Source: a virus. Taken from it: a DNA stretch of 43,131 bases. Made by a program: the position numbers and the translations under genes. The stretch covers positions 1 through 43,131 of the IMG/VR virus record IMGVR_UViG_3300048550_000945; one strand, given 5' to 3'. This document shows positions 5,148 to 39,014 of this stretch, piece after piece; positions within the stretch are counted from its first letter, which is position 1, and every line of letters begins with the position of its first letter. Under the pieces are notes generated by a model. That model had not been told where the DNA came from. It saw only the letters and a program-made list of their open reading frames with translations, and searched no databases.

Positions 5148-5200
5148 ATGAGACAACTAACAGCATCACAGAAAATCGCTCAACTTGAACACCGTATCGC
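5148..5200 (+). repeat. 53-nt direct repeat (second copy of 490-542) encoding N-terminal tag
   Basis: Positions 5148-5200 equal 490-542 base for base, beginning exactly at the ATG of both genes. Upstream leaders and downstream bodies are unrelated. Identity at third codon positions means a recent duplication, gene conversion, or selection on the nucleotide sequence itself. Confidence 0.95.
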
Positions 5201-5582
5201 CAGACTTGAAAAATCTGCTAGTCGATTTGACTCCTTGAACCTCGAGGTCGTCGCATCAGCGGCAGAAGATGTTGCCCTCATGGTCAATGCTAGGTTTAAC
5301 GCCAAGTCTTCTACCATCCGCAAACAAAAAAGAGGCAAAACAGTAACAGCATTCTTCAACCTACTTCGAGGGCGTGAGGTTCTCACAAAGGTTTTCGTAA
5401 GAAAGACAAGAAACCGCTTGGTCGCTTTCATGAGAAACTCTACGGGCTTTGTTGAACTCGGCAATGTTGAGTATTTCACCGCAGATTCTCAATCTTCTGT
5501 ACGAGAGCTTCTTGAGAGTGTAAGGTTTAACCTTAAAACAGATAGTTCTATCGACCTCTATGTTGACTCCTCAGAGATTTGA
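5148..5582 (+). CDS. Tagged virion-type protein (144 aa), N-terminal helical tag copy B
   Basis: Begins with the same tag as the gene at 490 (identical for 53 bases from the ATG), ending in R-L-E-K-S-A-S. The L-x-E sites fit T4-type prohead protease cleavage, which would release the approximately 120-residue body. The body starts with a helix and continues as a basic alpha/beta domain with many R/K, then an acidic end (D-S-S-I-D-L-Y-V-D). A small basic mature protein with a removable tag recalls T4 internal proteins, which are packed with DNA; this is inference. The ribosome site AGGA (5136) can pair with TCCT (5144). Its 3' end overlaps the minus-strand gene at 5558 by 25 bases. Confidence 0.8.
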   Translation: MRQLTASQKIAQLEHRIARLEKSASRFDSLNLEVVASAAEDVALMVNARFNAKSSTIRKQKRGKTVTAFFNLLRGREVLTKVFVRKTRNRLVAFMRNSTGFVELGNVEYFTADSQSSVRELLESVRFNLKTDSSIDLYVDSSEI

Positions 5583-19687: not shown

Positions 19688-19720
19688 AGTCTTGCCCTTG
19701 AACCAATGAAAGGAGTACCT

Positions 19721-21535
19721 ATGTCTAGGTATACTCGTTCTAAGTCTCAGAGGTCTTCTTCTGCCCGAAGGAACCTCCGTTCACGCCGTGCTAACTCAGC
19801 TATCCCAGGTTATGACAACCTCGGCTGGGAAGATTTCGGCCACCCCGCTTCAGCAGACCAGCCTAGTCTTGAGGACTATGGAATCGAATCAGATTTCGGT
19901 GAGGGTGTACGCAAAGGTCCTTACGGCGACAGTCCTGCACCAGCTTCTTACGGATGGGAGCCAGATCATCCCGCTTCAAGAAGTGCTAGCCTCCGTGACC
20001 GAAAGCTCCGTAAAGCTATGGAGCGTAAGGCTGCCAAGTGCATCAAGATTGCTGAGTCTCGTCTCGGCAAGTCTGCGTCTCAGCGTGAGATTGAAGACCT
20101 CGCACTCCGCTTCATGGATCTCCCAAATAAGGCGGTTAACACTCGCGTAGCTAGCCTCGACCACCATATGGGTATGGAAGATCTCGATGCAGATGAAGAC
20201 GACATCATGGCAATGATGGACCACCATATGGGTATGGAAGACCATATGGGTATGGACGACCATATGGGCATGGAAGATCTCGATGCAGATGAAGACGACA
20301 TCATGGCAATGATGGACGATCATATGGGTATGGAAGACTTCGATGCTGATGAAGACGACATCATGGGCATGGAAGACCATATGGGTATGGACGACCTCGA
20401 TGCAGATGAAGACGACATCATGGCAATGATGGACGACCATATGGGTATGGAAGATCTCGATGCAGATGAAGACGACATCATGGCAATGATGGACGACCAT
20501 ATGGGTATGGAAGATCATATGGGTATGGACGACCATATGGGTATGGACGACCATATGGGTATGGAAGACTTCGATGCAGACGAGGACGACATCATGGCAA
20601 TGATGGACGAACCTGTGGCACATGGCATCTTTGACGAGTATGACCTCGACATGGATGGGATGATCAGCCCAGAAGAGTTCGGAGGTTCAGCGGACGCTTT
20701 CAACGCTATGGACAGCGACCTCGACGGCTTCCTCTCTAGGGAAGAAGCTTCTGTCGGACTCGGTGACTCTTTTGGAGAAGAAGCCGCTGAAGTTCTCGCG
20801 GAGGAAGTGACTATGCTTAAAGCCGCGAATGCTCGCCTCTCACGTAAAGTCCGCAGTCTCTCTGTTCGCATGGCATCTCAGGAAGAGGCTTCTGAAGAAG
20901 AAGCATCTGAAGAAGAAGCCGAAGAGAAGGAGACTTCAAAGAAGAAGGCAAGCACTTCTCGTCGTATTGCCCGCATCGAGAGACTTGCTAATGCACTCTC
21001 TGATTACATGGCTGAGATGGAGCGTCAGGCATCTGAGGAAGAGGCTTCTGAAGAAGAAGCATCTGAGGAAGAAGCTGAAGAGAAAGAGACTTCAAAGAAG
21101 AAGGCTAAGGAAGAAGAGGCATCTGAGGAAGAGGCTTCTGAAGAAGAAGCCGAAGAGAAGGAGACTTCAAAGAAGGCTTACCACTCAATGGCTGACGTTC
21201 TCGCCGACCTTGAGATAGAAGCAGACGAAGAAGAGATCGTCGCAGAAGATCCTATGGGTCTTGATGCTTCAGACCTTGGCATGATCGACCCTAAGCTTGC
21301 TTCAATCTTCACCGCTTCTGACGAAGATGACGAAGATGACGAAGATGCAGACGAGACAGAAGATGGCGATAGCGAGGAGAAGGAGACTTCAAAGAAGGCC
21401 TCTTACCGACCAAGCAAGAGAACTCGTCAAGCTTCTGTGAAGACACTCGGCAACATCAGCCGTGAGGCATCTAGCTCAGACGAGCTCTCTAAGCTCTGGG
21501 AATCAGCCCCAGACGTTTCTAAGTTCTTCGGGTGA
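19721..21535 (+). CDS. Acidic scaffold/prohead core protein with HMGM repeats and EF-hands
   Basis: Lies between protease and capsid genes, the place of T4 gp22 scaffold. Start chosen at 19721 (604 residues) because AAAGGAG lies immediately before it; the upstream in-frame ATG at 19706 precedes that site. Order: Arg/Ser-rich N-terminus (1-30), glycine/proline linker, basic helix (90-140), approximately 150-residue acidic repeat array (11 copies of H-M-G-M, six of D-[LF]-D-A-D-E-D-D-I-M), two EF-hand loops (308-319 and 331-342, both with D at 1, 3, 5, G at 6 and E at 12), then coiled coil with E-E-A-S-E-E-E-A and K-E-T-S-K-K repeats. An I-x-E site (I-A-R-I-E-R) fits protease cleavage. Calcium binding would be unusual for a scaffold. 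Confidence 0.82.
   Translation: MSRYTRSKSQRSSSARRNLRSRRANSAIPGYDNLGWEDFGHPASADQPSLEDYGIESDFGEGVRKGPYGDSPAPASYGWEPDHPASRSASLRDRKLRKAMERKAAKCIKIAESRLGKSASQREIEDLALRFMDLPNKAVNTRVASLDHHMGMEDLDADEDDIMAMMDHHMGMEDHMGMDDHMGMEDLDADEDDIMAMMDDHMGMEDFDADEDDIMGMEDHMGMDDLDADEDDIMAMMDDHMGMEDLDADEDDIMAMMDDHMGMEDHMGMDDHMGMDDHMGMEDFDADEDDIMAMMDEPVAHGIFDEYDLDMDGMISPEEFGGSADAFNAMDSDLDGFLSREEASVGLGDSFGEEAAEVLAEEVTMLKAANARLSRKVRSLSVRMASQEEASEEEASEEEAEEKETSKKKASTSRRIARIERLANALSDYMAEMERQASEEEASEEEASEEEAEEKETSKKKAKEEEASEEEASEEEAEEKETSKKAYHSMADVLADLEIEADEEEIVAEDPMGLDASDLGMIDPKLASIFTASDEDDEDDEDADETEDGDSEEKETSKKASYRPSKRTRQASVKTLGNISREASSSDELSKLWESAPDVSKFFG
20157..20608 (+). repeat. Coding tandem repeat array (His-Met-Gly-Met / Asp-rich)
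   Basis: Irregular tandem array built of two units: a 15-21-base unit coding D-H-M-G-M-[ED]-D and a longer unit coding D-[LF]-D-A-D-E-D-D-I-M-A-M-M. Copies are near identical in DNA, so recent expansion by slippage or recombination is likely and copy number should vary. The minus strand also stays open across it only because of repetition. Confidence 0.92.
20879..21180 (+). repeat. Coding acidic/Lys repeat (EEAS-EEEA-EKETSKK)
   Basis: Three near-identical blocks code E-E-A-S-E-E-E-A-S-E-E-E-A-E-E-K-E-T-S-K-K, at about 20880-20945, 21034-21105 and 21112-21176; part of the block returns at 21377-21397. Codons are largely the same between copies, pointing to recent duplication in the scaffold gene. 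Confidence 0.85.
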
Positions 21536-26222: not shown

Positions 26223-26695
26223 ACTCAGCTACTAGAGTAGCTTCTGCTCACATGAGAAAAGAAGCCGCAAGTGGTCTCTTTGGGTTCACCAAATCTATCC
26301 AGAGAGAGGGTGAGTCAGCCATCAAGAGGGTAAAGAAGCAGGCGGAGAAGATCTCCACACAGCTTGAAAAGAGACATCCTGAAGCAGGGGTCTATTTAAC
26401 TTTGAGATGCACCAAAGCGGGTTGTGTTCCTTCTAAGGCATTAGCTAAGGTATGTATCTTCAACCGACCCCAAACTAGGGTCTTGAAAGGCCCTATGGGA
26501 TTTAAGCCATCTACGGCTAAGGCTTCCCAGAAAGCGATCTCGGACATACTCTTGTTTGCGGGCGAGGTTGGATATACTCTGTATCATAAGAAGAACGACG
26601 TACTTCCTTTCTTAACATCCTACGCGAAACGGAAGAGATGCCCCTACGCCAAGCTCTTAACTGAAGCGTACCCCCACATTCAGAGTGGCCTATGA
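26213..26695 (+). CDS. Hypothetical basic protein (160 aa)
   Basis: Starts inside the previous gene (10-base overlap); two close ATGs (26213 and 26219) make the exact start uncertain. The N-terminus R-V-A-S-A-H-M-R-K-E-A-A-S resembles the short helical tags of other proteins here. The body is basic with C66, C71 and C143 among K/R-rich helices. Its stop overlaps the next ATG (ATGA). No family recognised. Confidence 0.6.
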   Translation: MEMNSATRVASAHMRKEAASGLFGFTKSIQREGESAIKRVKKQAEKISTQLEKRHPEAGVYLTLRCTKAGCVPSKALAKVCIFNRPQTRVLKGPMGFKPSTAKASQKAISDILLFAGEVGYTLYHKKNDVLPFLTSYAKRKRCPYAKLLTEAYPHIQSGL

Positions 26696-27423
26696 GATCT
26701 CTATTCTTGTCCTTCTTGATATTCCCCTCACTGAGCTTTGCCCAAGTGAATATGGAATCAGATCGCGGAGGAGACAAAGAAGGATGGGGTCTTAAGACAG
26801 ACTTTGGCATCACCCTACAGTCGGGTAATGTCGAGACATTCTCTTATAAGCTTGGGCTCAGGGCTGATCTCGCGAGAGGGAAAAACCACCTTTACCTTGT
26901 CCTGAACAATCAGTATGGGGAAGAGGGTGGCGTAAGCTTTAGGGATCAGGGATTTGGACACATTAGGTGGACACATATGAGAGGGCCTGTTGGGTTTGAG
27001 ACCTTTACTCAAGTAGAATATGACGACTTTCGACTTCTCCAGACGAGGCAGTTGAATGGTTTAGGATTAAGAGTTGAGTTCATGGAAGTCTTAGCTGTCG
27101 GCATCAGTGGAATGTCTGATTTCGAGTCTATTCAGAAGAGAGACGAAGGTCAATTAGATTGGCGTGGGTCTTCTTATATCAGCTTAGATGAGGATTTAGG
27201 AGAGTCTTTCAAGATCCACGTCGTAAGTTATTACCAACCTCTTTTTAAGGACTTCTCTGATTGCCGCCTATATAGCATAGCTACGCTATCAGCCTCTGTC
27301 ACGAAAACCTTCTCGATTAAGAATCAAGTATCTTATGCCTTCGACACAAGACCCCCCGACGGTGTCGAGAAGAAAGATCTTCAATTCATAGTGAGCTTTG
27401 AATTGAAGACTTCGGGGGAATAG
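26692..27423 (+). CDS. Outer-membrane beta-barrel protein, DUF481-like (243 aa)
   Basis: A signal peptide (residues 1-17, M-R-S-L-F-L-S-F-L-I-F-P-S-L-S-F-A) is followed by a series of amphipathic strands typical of DUF481 (YdiY-like) proteins: G-x-x-x-S-G-N-V-E-T-F-S-Y, alternating aromatic/polar strands with Y-x-x-x-R-x-Q-L-N-G-L-G-L, ending in a strand F-I-V-S-F-E-L-K near the C-terminus. Such proteins sit in the Gram-negative outer membrane. A phage copy may change the cell surface during infection, for instance to block a receptor or help lysis; this is inference. Coupled by ATGA to the gene upstream. Acquired from a bacterial host seems likely. Confidence 0.78.
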   Translation: MRSLFLSFLIFPSLSFAQVNMESDRGGDKEGWGLKTDFGITLQSGNVETFSYKLGLRADLARGKNHLYLVLNNQYGEEGGVSFRDQGFGHIRWTHMRGPVGFETFTQVEYDDFRLLQTRQLNGLGLRVEFMEVLAVGISGMSDFESIQKRDEGQLDWRGSSYISLDEDLGESFKIHVVSYYQPLFKDFSDCRLYSIATLSASVTKTFSIKNQVSYAFDTRPPDGVEKKDLQFIVSFELKTSGE

Positions 27424-33306: not shown

Positions 33307-33672
33307 CTACTTGAGTGTGCCGTCAAACTCTTCGAATTCTATGTCTTCGATTGGGTTTTTTTCGGCGTGCTCAGTTTTTTTTTGCGTTGGATGCGAGGAA
33401 CCGTCCTTATCTAAGGCAGAAACCGCGACATGAGTATACTTATCAAGAGCGGCCTGCCCGAGAATGTACCCTATCTGGATGAAGCCTGAAGTGACGATCA
33501 TCGTAACCAACACCATAAATGCGTAGTGTTCAATTTTCGTCTGATATTCCCAGATGACATAGAACATCAAGATTTTCCATCCAAGGTCAGCGATAAGGTA
33601 TGCCAAGAACTTCTTACTCTTGAGTGGGAGCTTATCGAAGATGGTATGGTCTTTTGGTTTTTCGGTGGTCAT
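33307..33672 (-). CDS. Small two-helix membrane protein, holin-like (121 aa)
   Basis: Two membrane segments at about 22-41 and 50-72 (A-F-M-V-L-V-T-M-I-V-T-S-G-F-I-Q-I-G-Y) with a short charged loop, then an acidic hydrophilic tail ending E-F-E-E-F-D-G-T-L-K. Size and layout fit a class II holin, but many small phage membrane proteins look alike and no endolysin was found in the window. It is near a second two-helix protein and a lipoprotein, so a lysis or envelope cassette is possible. Confidence 0.65.
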   Translation of the reverse strand: MTTEKPKDHTIFDKLPLKSKKFLAYLIADLGWKILMFYVIWEYQTKIEHYAFMVLVTMIVTSGFIQIGYILGQAALDKYTHVAVSALDKDGSSHPTQKKTEHAEKNPIEDIEFEEFDGTLK

Positions 33673-33681
33673 GGGTTCCTC

Positions 33682-34029
33682 TTAATTCACTCGGAGTTTG
33701 GTTCGCTTGTTAGTGGATTTGTTAACTGTTTTTGGGAGGTGGTTGTTTCCCAAGTTCACTCTAGTTGTCATAGAACTCTGGAAGTCGTCCTCTATGGTTT
33801 GAGTGTATTTACGAGGGGGAGTGCTGTAGGCATATATAGTCTCCAGCCTACCCTGCTCTTCAGGGAGCATGGAAGACAGCAATGCTTGGAAGTCGTCTCT
33901 CGCCTTTTGATTTCCGTCAGACAAGAACTCTAGGATCAAATGGTCTGGGAGAAGGGGAGGGTTTTCAAAGTCGCCTGTCACACCTTTCAGGGTGTTCTGT
34001 CCGTTGTCTCTAATCCAATAGTTAGACAT
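33682..34029 (-). CDS. Hypothetical soluble protein (115 aa)
   Basis: Start set at 34029 because GAGGGGGAG lies immediately before it; the frame extends upstream to 34056 without a good site. It overlaps the end of the gene at 34022 by eight bases. Sequence: N-Y-W-I-R-D-N-G-Q-N-T, an acidic helix with L-P-E-E-Q-G-R-L, then a basic Asn/Thr/Lys-rich tail. No membrane segment or known motif; co-expressed with two membrane proteins. Confidence 0.62.
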   Translation of the reverse strand: MSNYWIRDNGQNTLKGVTGDFENPPLLPDHLILEFLSDGNQKARDDFQALLSSMLPEEQGRLETIYAYSTPPRKYTQTIEDDFQSSMTTRVNLGNNHLPKTVNKSTNKRTKLRVN

Positions 34030-34519
34030 CTCTCTCCCCCTCTTCTTCTTCACCATCTTCGGTGTCTTTGGTTTTAGGTATCCAACTCTCTACAACATTC
34101 TTTAGAATGATGTCTTCTTCTTTCTTTGCCTTAATCACACCCTCTCCTTGGAATAAAGATAGCTTGTCAATCACAGCAGATTGGAGATCGAATATTTGTT
34201 CGCGAAGAAGTTGCATCTGTATCTGAGCATCCCTTAATCTCGCGATCAGGGCTTCTCGATCTCCGTTTGCGGACGCGAGTTTGTCCTTGAGTTCTTCTAC
34301 TTCAGAGGGGTCTCTCCCTGAAGCTATTGCGAGCATAGAAGATATAGACCCCGTGAGCATACCTATGATCCCAATCAGGATGTCCCTATTTTTCTCTACT
34401 ATTTCGTGCGTAGAAAGAAAGTAGATGAGTATGACAATAAGACACATGAAGACGACAGACGCCCACCAGCCTCTTTTAGCTTTCTCTGATTGAGTGAACT
34501 GCTTATTTGTCTGGTTCAT
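34022..34519 (-). CDS. Two-helix membrane protein with coiled coil (165 aa)
   Basis: Membrane helices at about 18-36 (W-W-A-S-V-V-F-M-C-L-I-V-I-L) and 47-67 (I-L-I-G-I-I-G-M-L-T-G-S-I-S-S-M-L), followed by A-S-G-R-D-P-S-E-V-E-E-L and a heptad-like coiled coil to about 120, then an acidic tail. Overlaps the cyclase gene by 17 bases, so the two are translationally coupled. It could be a holin or spanin-like protein, or a membrane partner of the cyclase. No nucleotide-binding domain is visible. Confidence 0.7.
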   Translation of the reverse strand: MNQTNKQFTQSEKAKRGWWASVVFMCLIVILIYFLSTHEIVEKNRDILIGIIGMLTGSISSMLAIASGRDPSEVEELKDKLASANGDREALIARLRDAQIQMQLLREQIFDLQSAVIDKLSLFQGEGVIKAKKEEDIILKNVVESWIPKTKDTEDGEEEEGERDV

Positions 34520-35390
34520 CGCTAAATCCTATTCTTTTCTGCAGGTCTTTTTTAACAAAATCGTAAGACTCTGAGACGTAATCTACGACGCTGTCATAGA
34601 TGGGCATAGTATAAGGAAGCCCTATTAATATTCTTGACATGGGTCTAACAGATATTTGAAATAGGACATATAGAATCACGATAAGAGAGATTACCCCAGC
34701 TCTCCATATGACCCAATTTACCCAATCTAGGAATTCCCTATCTCTAGCTCTTTTCTTTATATACTTCGGGCCACCCAGCCTTTTGACTTTCTCAGAACTT
34801 GGAGGGGGCTGAAGAGATTCCACACTCTGCCCAACTGCGTAAACCTCCTGCGGGGTGCTCACCCCTTTGAAGCGATACATACCAACGCAGGCATATCGAG
34901 TGTCCTTAGGGGTACGGGTATTAGTTCTACTCTTAATGTTGACAAATGCTTCTTTCGTCAACAGAACTTGACCTGCTTGGCAGAGGCTCATAGTTCGAGC
35001 CGCTATGTTTTTAGCTAAGCCCTCTAGTTCAATCCTTTTAGCACCAGCACCGACGAAGAGTTCATCTTGTTGCACCTCTATGATCCGACCCCAATGGATG
35101 CCTATACGGGTAGTCAGCCGAGTCTTCTTTGGAACTGTCCTCTGATAGCTGAGAGCAAAGTTGACGGCATCAACAGTCCTGTTAAAAGAAAGTAAGAACC
35201 CGTCACTTCGGTCTATTTCTCGACCGTCATGTTTATAGATTAAAGACCGTGCGAGCCTATCATGAACCTGAAACCACTGAGCCGACACATGGGCACCATT
35301 CTTTTGAACGAATGCGGTAGACCCAATTATATCTAGCAAGACGATTGCTAGATAACGTTCTTTCATCGTGACTTCAGTGGGGACTTTCAT
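34503..35390 (-). CDS. Class III nucleotide cyclase with C-terminal membrane anchor (295 aa)
   Basis: The first 190 residues form a class III cyclase domain that turns an NTP into a 3',5'-cyclic NMP. Metal-binding D20 lies in L-L-D-I-I-G-S-T, the second aspartate D63 in R-S-D-G-F-L-L-S-F, and transition-state N128 and R132 in K-N-I-A-A-R-T; Y-R-F-K-G-V-S-T-P-Q-E-V-Y-A-V (172-186) is the usual end strand. The purine-reading lysine expected before D63 is not in its normal place, so ATP, GTP or a pyrimidine substrate cannot be told apart. One membrane helix at about 231-247, then an amphipathic tail. GGGAG precedes the ATG. Neighbours are a lipoprotein and small membrane proteins. Cyclases are very rare in phages. 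Confidence 0.88.
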   Translation of the reverse strand: MKVPTEVTMKERYLAIVLLDIIGSTAFVQKNGAHVSAQWFQVHDRLARSLIYKHDGREIDRSDGFLLSFNRTVDAVNFALSYQRTVPKKTRLTTRIGIHWGRIIEVQQDELFVGAGAKRIELEGLAKNIAARTMSLCQAGQVLLTKEAFVNIKSRTNTRTPKDTRYACVGMYRFKGVSTPQEVYAVGQSVESLQPPPSSEKVKRLGGPKYIKKRARDREFLDWVNWVIWRAGVISLIVILYVLFQISVRPMSRILIGLPYTMPIYDSVVDYVSESYDFVKKDLQKRIGFSDEPDK

Positions 35391-35391
35391 A

Positions 35392-35601
35392 CTACTCCCA
35401 GAGGCTCTCTATATTGCTACAAGTAGTATTCAAGATCCTCTGAGCTATGACCTTATCGCAATTGTCTATGTAAGGTCGGTATCCGACACATTCTTCAATG
35501 TAGTCTATAGCCTCTTCGCAAGGTGTCTTCACGGGATCTTCCTGATGTCCTGCTTCACAAGAGCTTAAGGAAAACGCTATTAGTAAGGCGATCTTCTTCA
35601 T
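35392..35601 (-). CDS. Small Cys-rich lipoprotein (69 aa)
   Basis: Signal peptide with lipobox L-S-S-C (acylated C15): M-K-K-I-A-L-L-I-A-F-S-L-S-S-C. The mature part of about 54 residues has C28, C38, C48 and C61 spaced as C-x9-C-x9-C-x12-C, suggesting two disulphides in the periplasm. Overlaps the start codon region of nothing but abuts the cyclase (one base apart) and the upstream gene by one base. Could be an o-spanin-like lysis protein or a surface-exclusion lipoprotein. Being so small and Cys-rich, it differs from typical o-spanins, which are Pro-rich. Confidence 0.72.
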   Translation of the reverse strand: MKKIALLIAFSLSSCEAGHQEDPVKTPCEEAIDYIEECVGYRPYIDNCDKVIAQRILNTTCSNIESLWE

Positions 35602-36850: not shown

Positions 36851-37522
36851 TTAGAGGACGTTACCGAGTCCGTCATATACTACCACGTAAGGATCAACAA
36901 CAGCACCTCCGACAGTGCGAGTGCTTTTAAGACCGAGAAGATCTCCCTTAGCTACAGAAATCCAGAAGCTTGAGTCCTCCTCAAGGACAGGGCTCACGAC
37001 ACCGTAGTCAAAGAAGCTCGTCGCTACAGGCTGAAAAACCCCAGCCACTTCTACGACATGACCTGCGGGAACGACGTATCTTGCCCCTGCGAGAATCTGT
37101 AGGATGTCTTCTACAGAAGCTGTAGAGGTTGCAACCCCCACGCCTGCGGTAGCTACGGTCACCGCGACAACAGCATTAATAGCCGCGAGGTCGAGAGTGT
37201 TACCTGCTCTCATCTCAGCCACTAGAGCATCTGCGATGGTCTTTGCGTCCGCTGATGTGATAGACGCACCTACGGCAGGGTCGTTTGCACCATCATCGAG
37301 ATTGACTAGGAGATAAGCCGCGAGGCCTCTCACTTCCGTAGTCACCACCCCAGCCGCTACTGTAGGGAGTGTGGTGGTTTCAGCTACGCGAAGGTAACGA
37401 GGCCCTTGCGGTGCGGGGTCAACCACAGGGTTGGCTTGTGATCTATTAGGCCACATATCTTTAACAAGAATCTGGCCGTTAGAGATAGATGTGTCTCTGA
37501 TACAAATTGCTGGACTTGGCAT
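36851..37522 (-). CDS. Virion-type protein, paralogue 1 of 3 (223 aa)
   Basis: Ala/Val-rich protein with the family plan shared by the next two genes: N-G-Q-I-L-V-K-D-M-W-P-N-R-S-Q near residue 20, P-Q-G-P-R-Y-L-R-V at about 38, a middle with L-A-A-Y-L-L and A-D-A-L-V-A-E-M-R-A, then I-L-Q-I-L-A-G-A-R-Y-V-V-P-A-G, F-W-I-S-V-A-K-G and a C-terminal P-Y-V-V-V-Y-D-G-L-G. Probably a fibre, neck or head-surface protein. AAGGAG precedes the ATG; the gene abuts the second copy, so all three are one operon. Confidence 0.75.
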   Translation of the reverse strand: MPSPAICIRDTSISNGQILVKDMWPNRSQANPVVDPAPQGPRYLRVAETTTLPTVAAGVVTTEVRGLAAYLLVNLDDGANDPAVGASITSADAKTIADALVAEMRAGNTLDLAAINAVVAVTVATAGVGVATSTASVEDILQILAGARYVVPAGHVVEVAGVFQPVATSFFDYGVVSPVLEEDSSFWISVAKGDLLGLKSTRTVGGAVVDPYVVVYDGLGNVL

Positions 37523-37534
37523 TTACTTTTCTCC

Positions 37535-38245
37535 TTAGATGTAGAGTGAGCCGTCATCACCATAGATGACAACGTAAGGTGCAGGGTTACCGCTAGCGTC
37601 TACCCTCTCCTGAGCTTTGCGAAGCTGACCTCTCTTTGCAGAGATCCAGAAAGAGGGGTGGTTGTTGAAGTCACTCCAAAGACTAGCATAGTCGGCAGGG
37701 TTCGTGAGAGATCCCGCTTGATCTAGACCCGCGAGAGGCACGAAGGCACCTGCATCTTGCACGTCCTGACCCGCTGGGATACTGAAGACTTTGTAGCCCG
37801 AAATAATCTGAAGAACCTCAAGCACTGTGCCTGTAGAGTTACCCAGAATGCCGTCAAGGTCATTACCCACGGCGGTGTTTTCAACGATAACAGCATTGAT
37901 GTCTGCGATAGTAAGACTTTGAGCAGAACGCATTCTCAAGATGAGAGCATCTGCGATGTCGTTTGCTTGATCACTAGTAAGGGCGATGCCCGCCGCCGCA
38001 GTATTCTCTACAGTAGTGAGAAGATAGACCGCGAGACCCGTGAGGTCAGTAGTCGTAGCGAAGTTGACATCGAGGGCAACGTCCTGACTAATGTCCCTTG
38101 TATGGCCATAGAGATAAACGGGCCCTTTGAAGTTAGGGCTGATAGTAGCATTCGACTGTGTCTTATGCGGGTAGAGATCAGTGATCTGTACTGAAACACG
38201 TCCGTCAGTTGAGTTAGTTACTCTTGGGGTTGCAAGAAATGGCAT
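37535..38245 (-). CDS. Virion-type protein, paralogue 2 of 3 (236 aa)
   Basis: Start set at 38245 (M-P-F-L-A-T-P) where AGGAG fits and where the N-terminus lines up with M-P-S and M-P-Y of the sister genes; the frame is open to 38281. Shares V-Q-I-T-D-L-Y-P, K-G-P-V-Y-L-Y, L-A-V-Y-L-L, A-D-A-L-I-L-R-M-R, V-L-Q-I-I-S-G, S-F-W-I-S-A-K-R-G and P-Y-V-V-I-Y-G-D-D-G-S-L-Y with them. Three tandem copies could form a hetero-trimer or be alternative surface proteins. Confidence 0.75.
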   Translation of the reverse strand: MPFLATPRVTNSTDGRVSVQITDLYPHKTQSNATISPNFKGPVYLYGHTRDISQDVALDVNFATTTDLTGLAVYLLTTVENTAAAGIALTSDQANDIADALILRMRSAQSLTIADINAVIVENTAVGNDLDGILGNSTGTVLEVLQIISGYKVFSIPAGQDVQDAGAFVPLAGLDQAGSLTNPADYASLWSDFNNHPSFWISAKRGQLRKAQERVDASGNPAPYVVIYGDDGSLYI

Positions 38246-38258
38246 ATCTAATCTCCTA

Positions 38259-39014
38259 TTAGCTGTAGAGAGTACCGTCATCGTTATAGACGGTAAGAAG
38301 AGGCGAGGTAGAGCGAACTCCTGCGAAAAGGTCGCCGTAGACGCCGTCTCTAACAGAAGTTAAGCCCGAGAGTGAACCCTCAGAGAATGAGATCTTCCAA
38401 GAAGAGTCTCTCGGCACAAGTGTTCTCATTGTAGAGCCGAGTGTGCCAGGCGAGAGTACAAGCTCTTTAACCCCGTCTGCATCCTGAATGGGAACTCCTG
38501 CGTTCACGATGTAATCTTCACCCGCTAAGATCGCTAGTACTTCTACCAACGACCCTGTGCTGTTCGAGTTAGCGACGCTAACCCCATCGAGGTCAGTAGG
38601 TGCGTTAACAACATCCGCACCTGAAAGAATTGTGTTGATGTCTGCAGTCTGGAGGGTAGATCCAGCTCGGACTCTAGCGACGATGTTCGTAGCCGCTTGT
38701 TCAGCTTGAACTAAGCTCAGAGCAGGGCCTGTACCCGCACCGTTAACATCTGCCGCAGGGTCAGCCTCTATGTGAGCTATAAGATATGCTATGAGGCCGT
38801 TACTTCTTCTGAGAAACTCGATTGAAGTATCTGCGTTGACTTTCAGCACAGGGCGACCGACGCCTGTTGAACCGACATTTGCAGTTCGGACATAGAAAGG
38901 GCCTTGCCCTCGCGGATCGTTGACGAGGTTTCTTTGAGACTCGTTGGGGAACAAGTCTGTGATCTGAACTGATCCGTTTTGGATTTCAGGTCGTCTTGCA
39001 ATGATATATGGCAT
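38259..39014 (-). CDS. Virion-type protein, paralogue 3 of 3 (251 aa)
   Basis: First of the three tandem paralogues in transcription order. N-terminus M-P-Y-I-I-A-R-R-P-E then V-Q-I-T-D-L-F-P-N-E-S-Q, Q-G-P-F-Y-V-R-T, L-I-A-Y-L-I-A-H-I-E, V-E-V-L-A-I-L-A-G-E-D-Y-I-V, S-S-W-K-I-S-F-S-E-G and end L-T-V-Y-N-D-D-G-T-L-Y. Most diverged in the middle. AAAGGAG precedes the ATG. Role as paralogue 1. Confidence 0.75.
   Translation of the reverse strand: MPYIIARRPEIQNGSVQITDLFPNESQRNLVNDPRGQGPFYVRTANVGSTGVGRPVLKVNADTSIEFLRRSNGLIAYLIAHIEADPAADVNGAGTGPALSLVQAEQAATNIVARVRAGSTLQTADINTILSGADVVNAPTDLDGVSVANSNSTGSLVEVLAILAGEDYIVNAGVPIQDADGVKELVLSPGTLGSTMRTLVPRDSSWKISFSEGSLSGLTSVRDGVYGDLFAGVRSTSPLLTVYNDDGTLYS

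Follow-up and report, generated by a model that had tools for sequence, protein, structure and literature searches.

A membrane-anchored class III nucleotide cyclase and its two-helix partner in unrelated phages: a candidate virus-owned signalling device

The window is the whole stretch of viral DNA analysed here, 43,131 nucleotides of the IMG/VR record IMGVR_UViG_3300048550_000945. Its minus strand carries a gene for a predicted membrane-anchored class III nucleotide cyclase, called C below, and the start of a second gene at 34519 overlaps the stop of the first by 17 bases. The second product, M, is a two-helix, coiled-coil membrane protein (Table 1). An earlier note, made from the sequence of this DNA alone, had recognised the overlap and the order of the surrounding genes, with a lipoprotein upstream of C and a 124-aa and then a 121-aa gene after M, and both descriptions hold. 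The range that it assigned to the feature, 34503-35601, takes in the cyclase and the lipoprotein and leaves out M, the only obligate partner of C.

Table 1. Genes at the cyclase locus, in window positions. Occurrence is given for the phage groups that are described in the text.
Feature	Position	Strand	Basis or occurrence
C, 295 aa, predicted class III nucleotide cyclase with membrane anchor	34503..35390	-	ORF, profiles, AlphaFold2 model
M, 165-aa two-TM and coiled-coil protein, partner of C	34022..34519	-	ORF, relatives, predicted structure
69-aa Cys-rich putative lipoprotein	35392..35601	-	Directly upstream of C in 10/14 loci of group J and in one unassigned locus, nowhere else
Soluble 124-aa protein following M (probable start 34029)	33682..34056	-	4/14 group-J loci
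121-aa two-TM protein	33307..33672	-	3/14 group-J loci, 10/10 group-T loci, 0/17 small phages

C consists of a catalytic domain (residues about 13-190), a conserved juxtamembrane linker (191-220) and a single hydrophobic helix (about 224-246), which agrees with the membrane anchor claimed for it and lies C-terminal of the catalytic domain. Profile search, one of the checks that had been proposed, places C above the curated cut-off of Pfam Guanylate_cyc (PF00211; 23.4 bits against 21.9, genome-wise E 1.9e-6), which bears out a phage-borne class III cyclase, while the matches to profiles of the bacterial cyclase PycC are weak. The strongest match is to the cyclase domain of NCBIfam TIGR04510 (E 2.5e-44, 152 bits), with residues 15-204 only aligned. 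Structure prediction, proposed as well, gives a confident class III fold: the AlphaFold2 model has a mean pLDDT of 91, and its best solved matches are Ma1120 and Rv1900c, two adenylyl cyclases of class III (target TM-score 0.87-0.90), which are also the top solved matches of C by profile comparison.

The active site is strongly conserved. Residues D20, D63, R132, K118, E123, K127 and D60 occur in 102/102 distinct C-M pairs and N128 in 99/102, with Ala replacing N128 in the loci L042, L043 and L045. The catalytic quartet D20, D63, N128 and R132, read as intact in the earlier note, is thus present, conserved and under selection. The note was equally right that the base-specifying lysine is not in its usual place, as C has GREI-DRSDGF where adenylyl cyclases usually have GxxVKxxGDGF. 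This lysine is not obligatory for class III cyclases, because Rv1900c, the closest solved relative of C, also lacks it and is still active. The linker (LQPPxxSEKxKR) is as conserved as the catalytic domain, and the TM helix and tail are less so. Judged from its sequence, C is a predicted enzyme, a class III cyclase with an apparently intact catalytic set. The L042 locus (IMGVR_UViG_3300040856_003274) harbors a highly divergent C, with Ala at N128 and motifs intermediate towards the bacterial relatives, next to an ordinary M; this C is possibly an independent recruitment.

The predicted structure of M, at low confidence (pLDDT 67), is a TM hairpin (residues 6-37 and 45-66) followed by a long helix (71-122). 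The second TM helix is rich in glycine and serine. Residues 67-80 are 98% conserved, and the predicted cytosolic stem, GRDPSEVEELKDKL, and the coil are near-invariant. The median dN/dS of M is 0.06, below the 0.12 of C (0.08 for the catalytic domain of C alone), and these ratios indicate that both proteins are subject to purifying selection. At least 216 relatives of M are present in IMG/VR. A profile search with M against the PDB returned no structural match, and M contains neither a Pfam domain above cut-off nor a cyclic-nucleotide-binding domain.

M also occurs on its own. The one bacterial M found is on a MAG contig that is itself phage-like and lacks C, and a divergent M (about 45%) without C is present in small phages that form a sister group (L270, L285-L290), where no cyclase was found in the available sequence, including a contig of 29.9 kb. 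These sister phages show an inverted terminase gene beside M, and in some of them thymidylate synthase adjoins M. As M occurs there without C, it must have some role by itself, and C is coupled to that role.

C, by comparison, is tied to M. The best 80 of the at least 216 M loci all have C (80/80), and a search from the cyclase side added 72 loci, 71 with M; the contig of the single exception ends 70 bases past the cyclase. Each contig being counted once, about 135 contigs in IMG/VR carry both genes, and the contigs surveyed may be fragments. The two genes nearly always overlap or lie within about 50 bases of each other, with a usual spacing of -4 to -20 bases, and they remain close despite insertions of 1.5-3.9 kb between them. 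Their order is reversed in L217, and they stand tail to tail in G012 and G013. Distances among the C and M sequences are correlated (r=0.65; 0/999 permutations), which partly reflects shared phylogeny. Within group T the trees of C and M, built by quick methods, conflict, and therefore partners can be exchanged. From this sequence survey M is to be regarded as the obligate partner of C, with C lacking M solely at contig ends.

The pair is distributed over at least three groups of uncultured phages (J, S and T) that have little else in common in their C-M neighbourhoods; the smallest carriers measure 35 kb and the largest several hundred kb. Group J, which includes the window, consists of giant phages whose capsid protein is related to those of Tunturi_5 and Bacillus phage G. 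The phages of group S measure about 35 kb, and their C-M pair lies between the terminase, often with thymidylate synthase, and the portal; the group S terminase has no match among cultured phages. Group T consists of large phages without the J capsid. None of the 50,697 INPHARED records, which cover cultured phages, encodes C or M, and plasmid relatives of C are limited to distant rhizobial cyclases (26-32%).

In one clade of the giant phages, 14/14 large contigs have C. Among J contigs picked by the capsid gene alone, both C and M are present in 7/7 longer than 110 kb, and the four misses are fragments of at most 105 kb. The sister clade by capsid, to which LR745208.1 belongs, has C in 0/12 contigs (94-619 kb), and M is likewise missing in all three members searched (LR745208.1, G437 and G439). 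The capsid tree joins the contigs without C in one clade (support 100/99). Since C is absent throughout this clade and M is missing where searched, the pair was gained or lost as a unit. The uniformly cyclase-free sister clade includes L317 (619 kb), and a comparison of habitats and hosts could reveal the purpose of the module.

The conserved unit is C and M alone, and the surrounding small genes are incidental. The earlier note had seen in the locus a functional cluster of small envelope proteins, a view rejected on the neighbour counts across loci: the presence of the lipoprotein, 124-aa and 121-aa genes beside C-M varies from group to group (Table 1), and none of them is in the C-M neighbourhoods of the small phages. 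In group T the 121-aa gene lies upstream of C on the opposite strand. A survey of co-occurrence in other phages, also proposed in the note, divides: the cyclase is kept beside the 165-aa gene essentially always, the opposite of the outcome that the note had named as refuting its idea, and the 121-aa gene comes and goes.

The window holds several other features. A cytosine-5 DNA methyltransferase-like gene on the minus strand (1194-2373) is divided between two overlapping ORFs (1603-2373 and 1194-1613), by a frameshift, as a split enzyme or through an assembly error. Two plus-strand genes (490-1089 and 5148-5582) encode proteins with a nearly identical leader (MRQLTASQKIAQLEHRIARLEK), perhaps a virion propeptide. 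Tandem repeats with a unit of about 60-117 bases occupy positions 20159-20610 (plus strand) of the ORF 19706-21535, which encodes an Asp/Met-rich repeat protein. Three paralogues of about 220-250 aa stand in tandem (36851-39014, minus strand); they are kept in related group-J contigs and are probably virion proteins. An outer-membrane-protein-like gene (26692-27423, plus strand) with a signal peptide, DUF481-like by eye, is near C-M in 7/10 group-T phages.

Catalysis by class III cyclases requires a dimer. This requirement, the features of M and the conserved linker of C together favour a split receptor-cyclase, in which C and M make up one membrane-bound second-messenger module with M as scaffold or sensor and a product that acts on a host receptor. 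We hold this reading, drawn from sequence and predicted structure, to be a serious possibility that falls just short of probable. M would oligomerise in the inner membrane by means of its small-residue-rich second TM helix, stem and coil, and would hold C as a catalytic dimer, probably through the linker. M would sense or scaffold, and C would make a cyclic nucleotide. No PF00027 domain was detected in 18 contigs with C and M (five of at least 275 kb) or in two relatives lacking C, with control genomes positive, in accord with the earlier remark that no cyclic-nucleotide-binding domain lies nearby. With no recognisable cyclic-nucleotide-binding protein of their own, these phages would depend on a host receptor as the target of the product, unless it reaches M by way of something other than a known binding domain. 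In the small phages C-M is located among packaging and head genes, and this gene position suggests late expression and a possible role in the state of the host envelope, lysis timing or the exclusion of competitors. A wider proposal, that unrelated phages separately acquired this split receptor-cyclase as a virus-owned second-messenger system and use host-receptor signalling to control late infection, is possible and distinctly more doubtful.

The main rival reverses the direction of signalling. By a Pycsar-like logic, C would be triggered and its product would switch on M as a membrane effector, a pore or depolariser, which would kill or silence the cell against a competing phage or time lysis. 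A cyclase and a two-TM protein in one operon fit this logic, as does the glycine- and serine-rich second TM helix of M. M is moreover the more conserved partner and is also found without C, as expected of a working part, and the phages that have M alone agree with this role of M no less well than with a split receptor-cyclase. Most M members weakly match models of SLATT two-TM effectors and their reversed sequences do not; however, these scores stay below cut-off and the profile-profile probability of 0.2 is no higher than with shuffled controls. M carries a coil rather than a cyclic-nucleotide-binding domain, PycC profiles match C weakly, and fixation across whole phage clades would be unusual for an exclusion cassette. 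We regard the effector direction as possible but doubtful. A lysis system, in which M would be a holin or would regulate one and C would set the time, draws on the same gene positions among late packaging and head genes, on the inverted terminase gene beside M in the sister group, and on the two-TM topology and charged cytosolic tail of M. M matches no holin family, however, a near-invariant coil of 50 residues is atypical of holins, and the phage contig G428 (about 36 kb) carries two further genes after its tail genes, one endolysin-like and one for a 1-TM coiled-coil protein, all of which makes this reading improbable.

Two further explanations concern the activity of C. It could have ceased to be an enzyme and, with the cyclase fold retained, serve M as a structural partner, as the missing canonical lysine, the Ala at N128 in the three loci named above and the Pro at that position in the bacterial TIGR04510 relatives might suggest. 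The retention of the metal aspartates and the transition-state arginine in every distinct sequence, and of N128 in nearly every one, speaks against a dead enzyme, as does the activity of Rv1900c, and we consider this very unlikely. C could instead be a decoy that floods the cell with cyclic nucleotide and so saturates or mis-sets host immunity, M merely anchoring it. Attacks of phages on cyclic-nucleotide immunity by means of Acb1 and Apyc1 are known (PMC9117128), but C has a TM anchor of its own, which would render M superfluous, and yet C is never seen without M. For this reason the decoy is the least favoured of the three roles that the earlier note had put forward, the others being superinfection exclusion and lysis timing, and only a slight chance is left to it. 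The split receptor-cyclase is the reading that we carry forward.

Phages destroy or sponge the cyclic-nucleotide alarms of bacteria. If C is active, phages also make cyclic-nucleotide signals for their own ends, and the C-M pair appears to be a signalling device of the virus itself, not described before. That M hardly varies suggests a single conserved target, either in the membrane or in the host. As a compact and sharply bounded unit in phages of such different sizes, the pair can be expressed directly, and it provides a marker for the split between presence and absence in sister clades of giant phages.

Among known proteins, the closest sequence relatives of the C catalytic domain are bacterial proteins of about 840-965 aa annotated as putative peptide modification system cyclase (TIGR04510), a type present in 7/399 sampled Pseudomonadota genomes. 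They share with C the DRSDG, GAK and EGLxK motifs, the missing lysine and a hydrophobic segment after the domain. In contrast, C ends after one TM helix without the long C-terminal part, has Asn in place of their Pro in the NxxAR motif, and is paired with M. Assignment as a full-length TIGR04510 cyclase was rejected, since 152 bits over the domain alone compare with a 400-bit cut-off. Ma1120 and Rv1900c (Mycobacterium) resemble C in fold and in the layout of metal and transition-state residues; identity is about 23%, and C has the C-terminal TM helix and lacks the base-specifying Lys found in Ma1120.

Pycsar systems, whose cyclase product is cCMP or cUMP, resemble the pair in that a class III cyclase adjoins a membrane protein (PycC with PycTM or PycTIR). 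They are bacterial, whereas C and M are phage-carried, and the Pycsar receptor-effector is defined by a cyclic-nucleotide-binding domain joined to a TM or TIR domain (PMC11224242), the first of which M lacks. PycC profiles match C far less strongly than TIGR04510 does (E 1e-3 for the window protein, 2.4e-6 for the best member), and Pycsar membership, raised in the earlier note, was rejected on the weak matches and the missing cyclic-nucleotide-binding partner. SLATT two-TM effectors are similar to M in having a TM hairpin and then a cytosolic helix. The SLATT model PF18142 matches 30/35 M members below its curated cut-off (best E 5e-5; window M, 14.8 bits against 26.5), and the matches vanish with reversed sequences. 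M as a SLATT effector was nevertheless rejected, because these single-sequence matches are below cut-off and hhalign, with only three sequences on the SLATT side, gave a probability no higher than shuffled controls did. Holin families in Pfam, PHROGs and NCBIfam gave no match to M.

No description of a phage-encoded cyclase of this kind, of such a C-M pair or of a comparable cyclic-nucleotide signalling pathway encoded by phages was found in the open-access literature searched. Other viral proteins with a predicted class III cyclase fold are present in BFVD, from uncultured Caudovirales (A0A6J5RWB7 and A0A6J5KRX6) and from giant viruses, at 11-16% identity to C and with other architectures. 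A viral cyclase as such is therefore not new, and it is the pairing with M for which no description was found.
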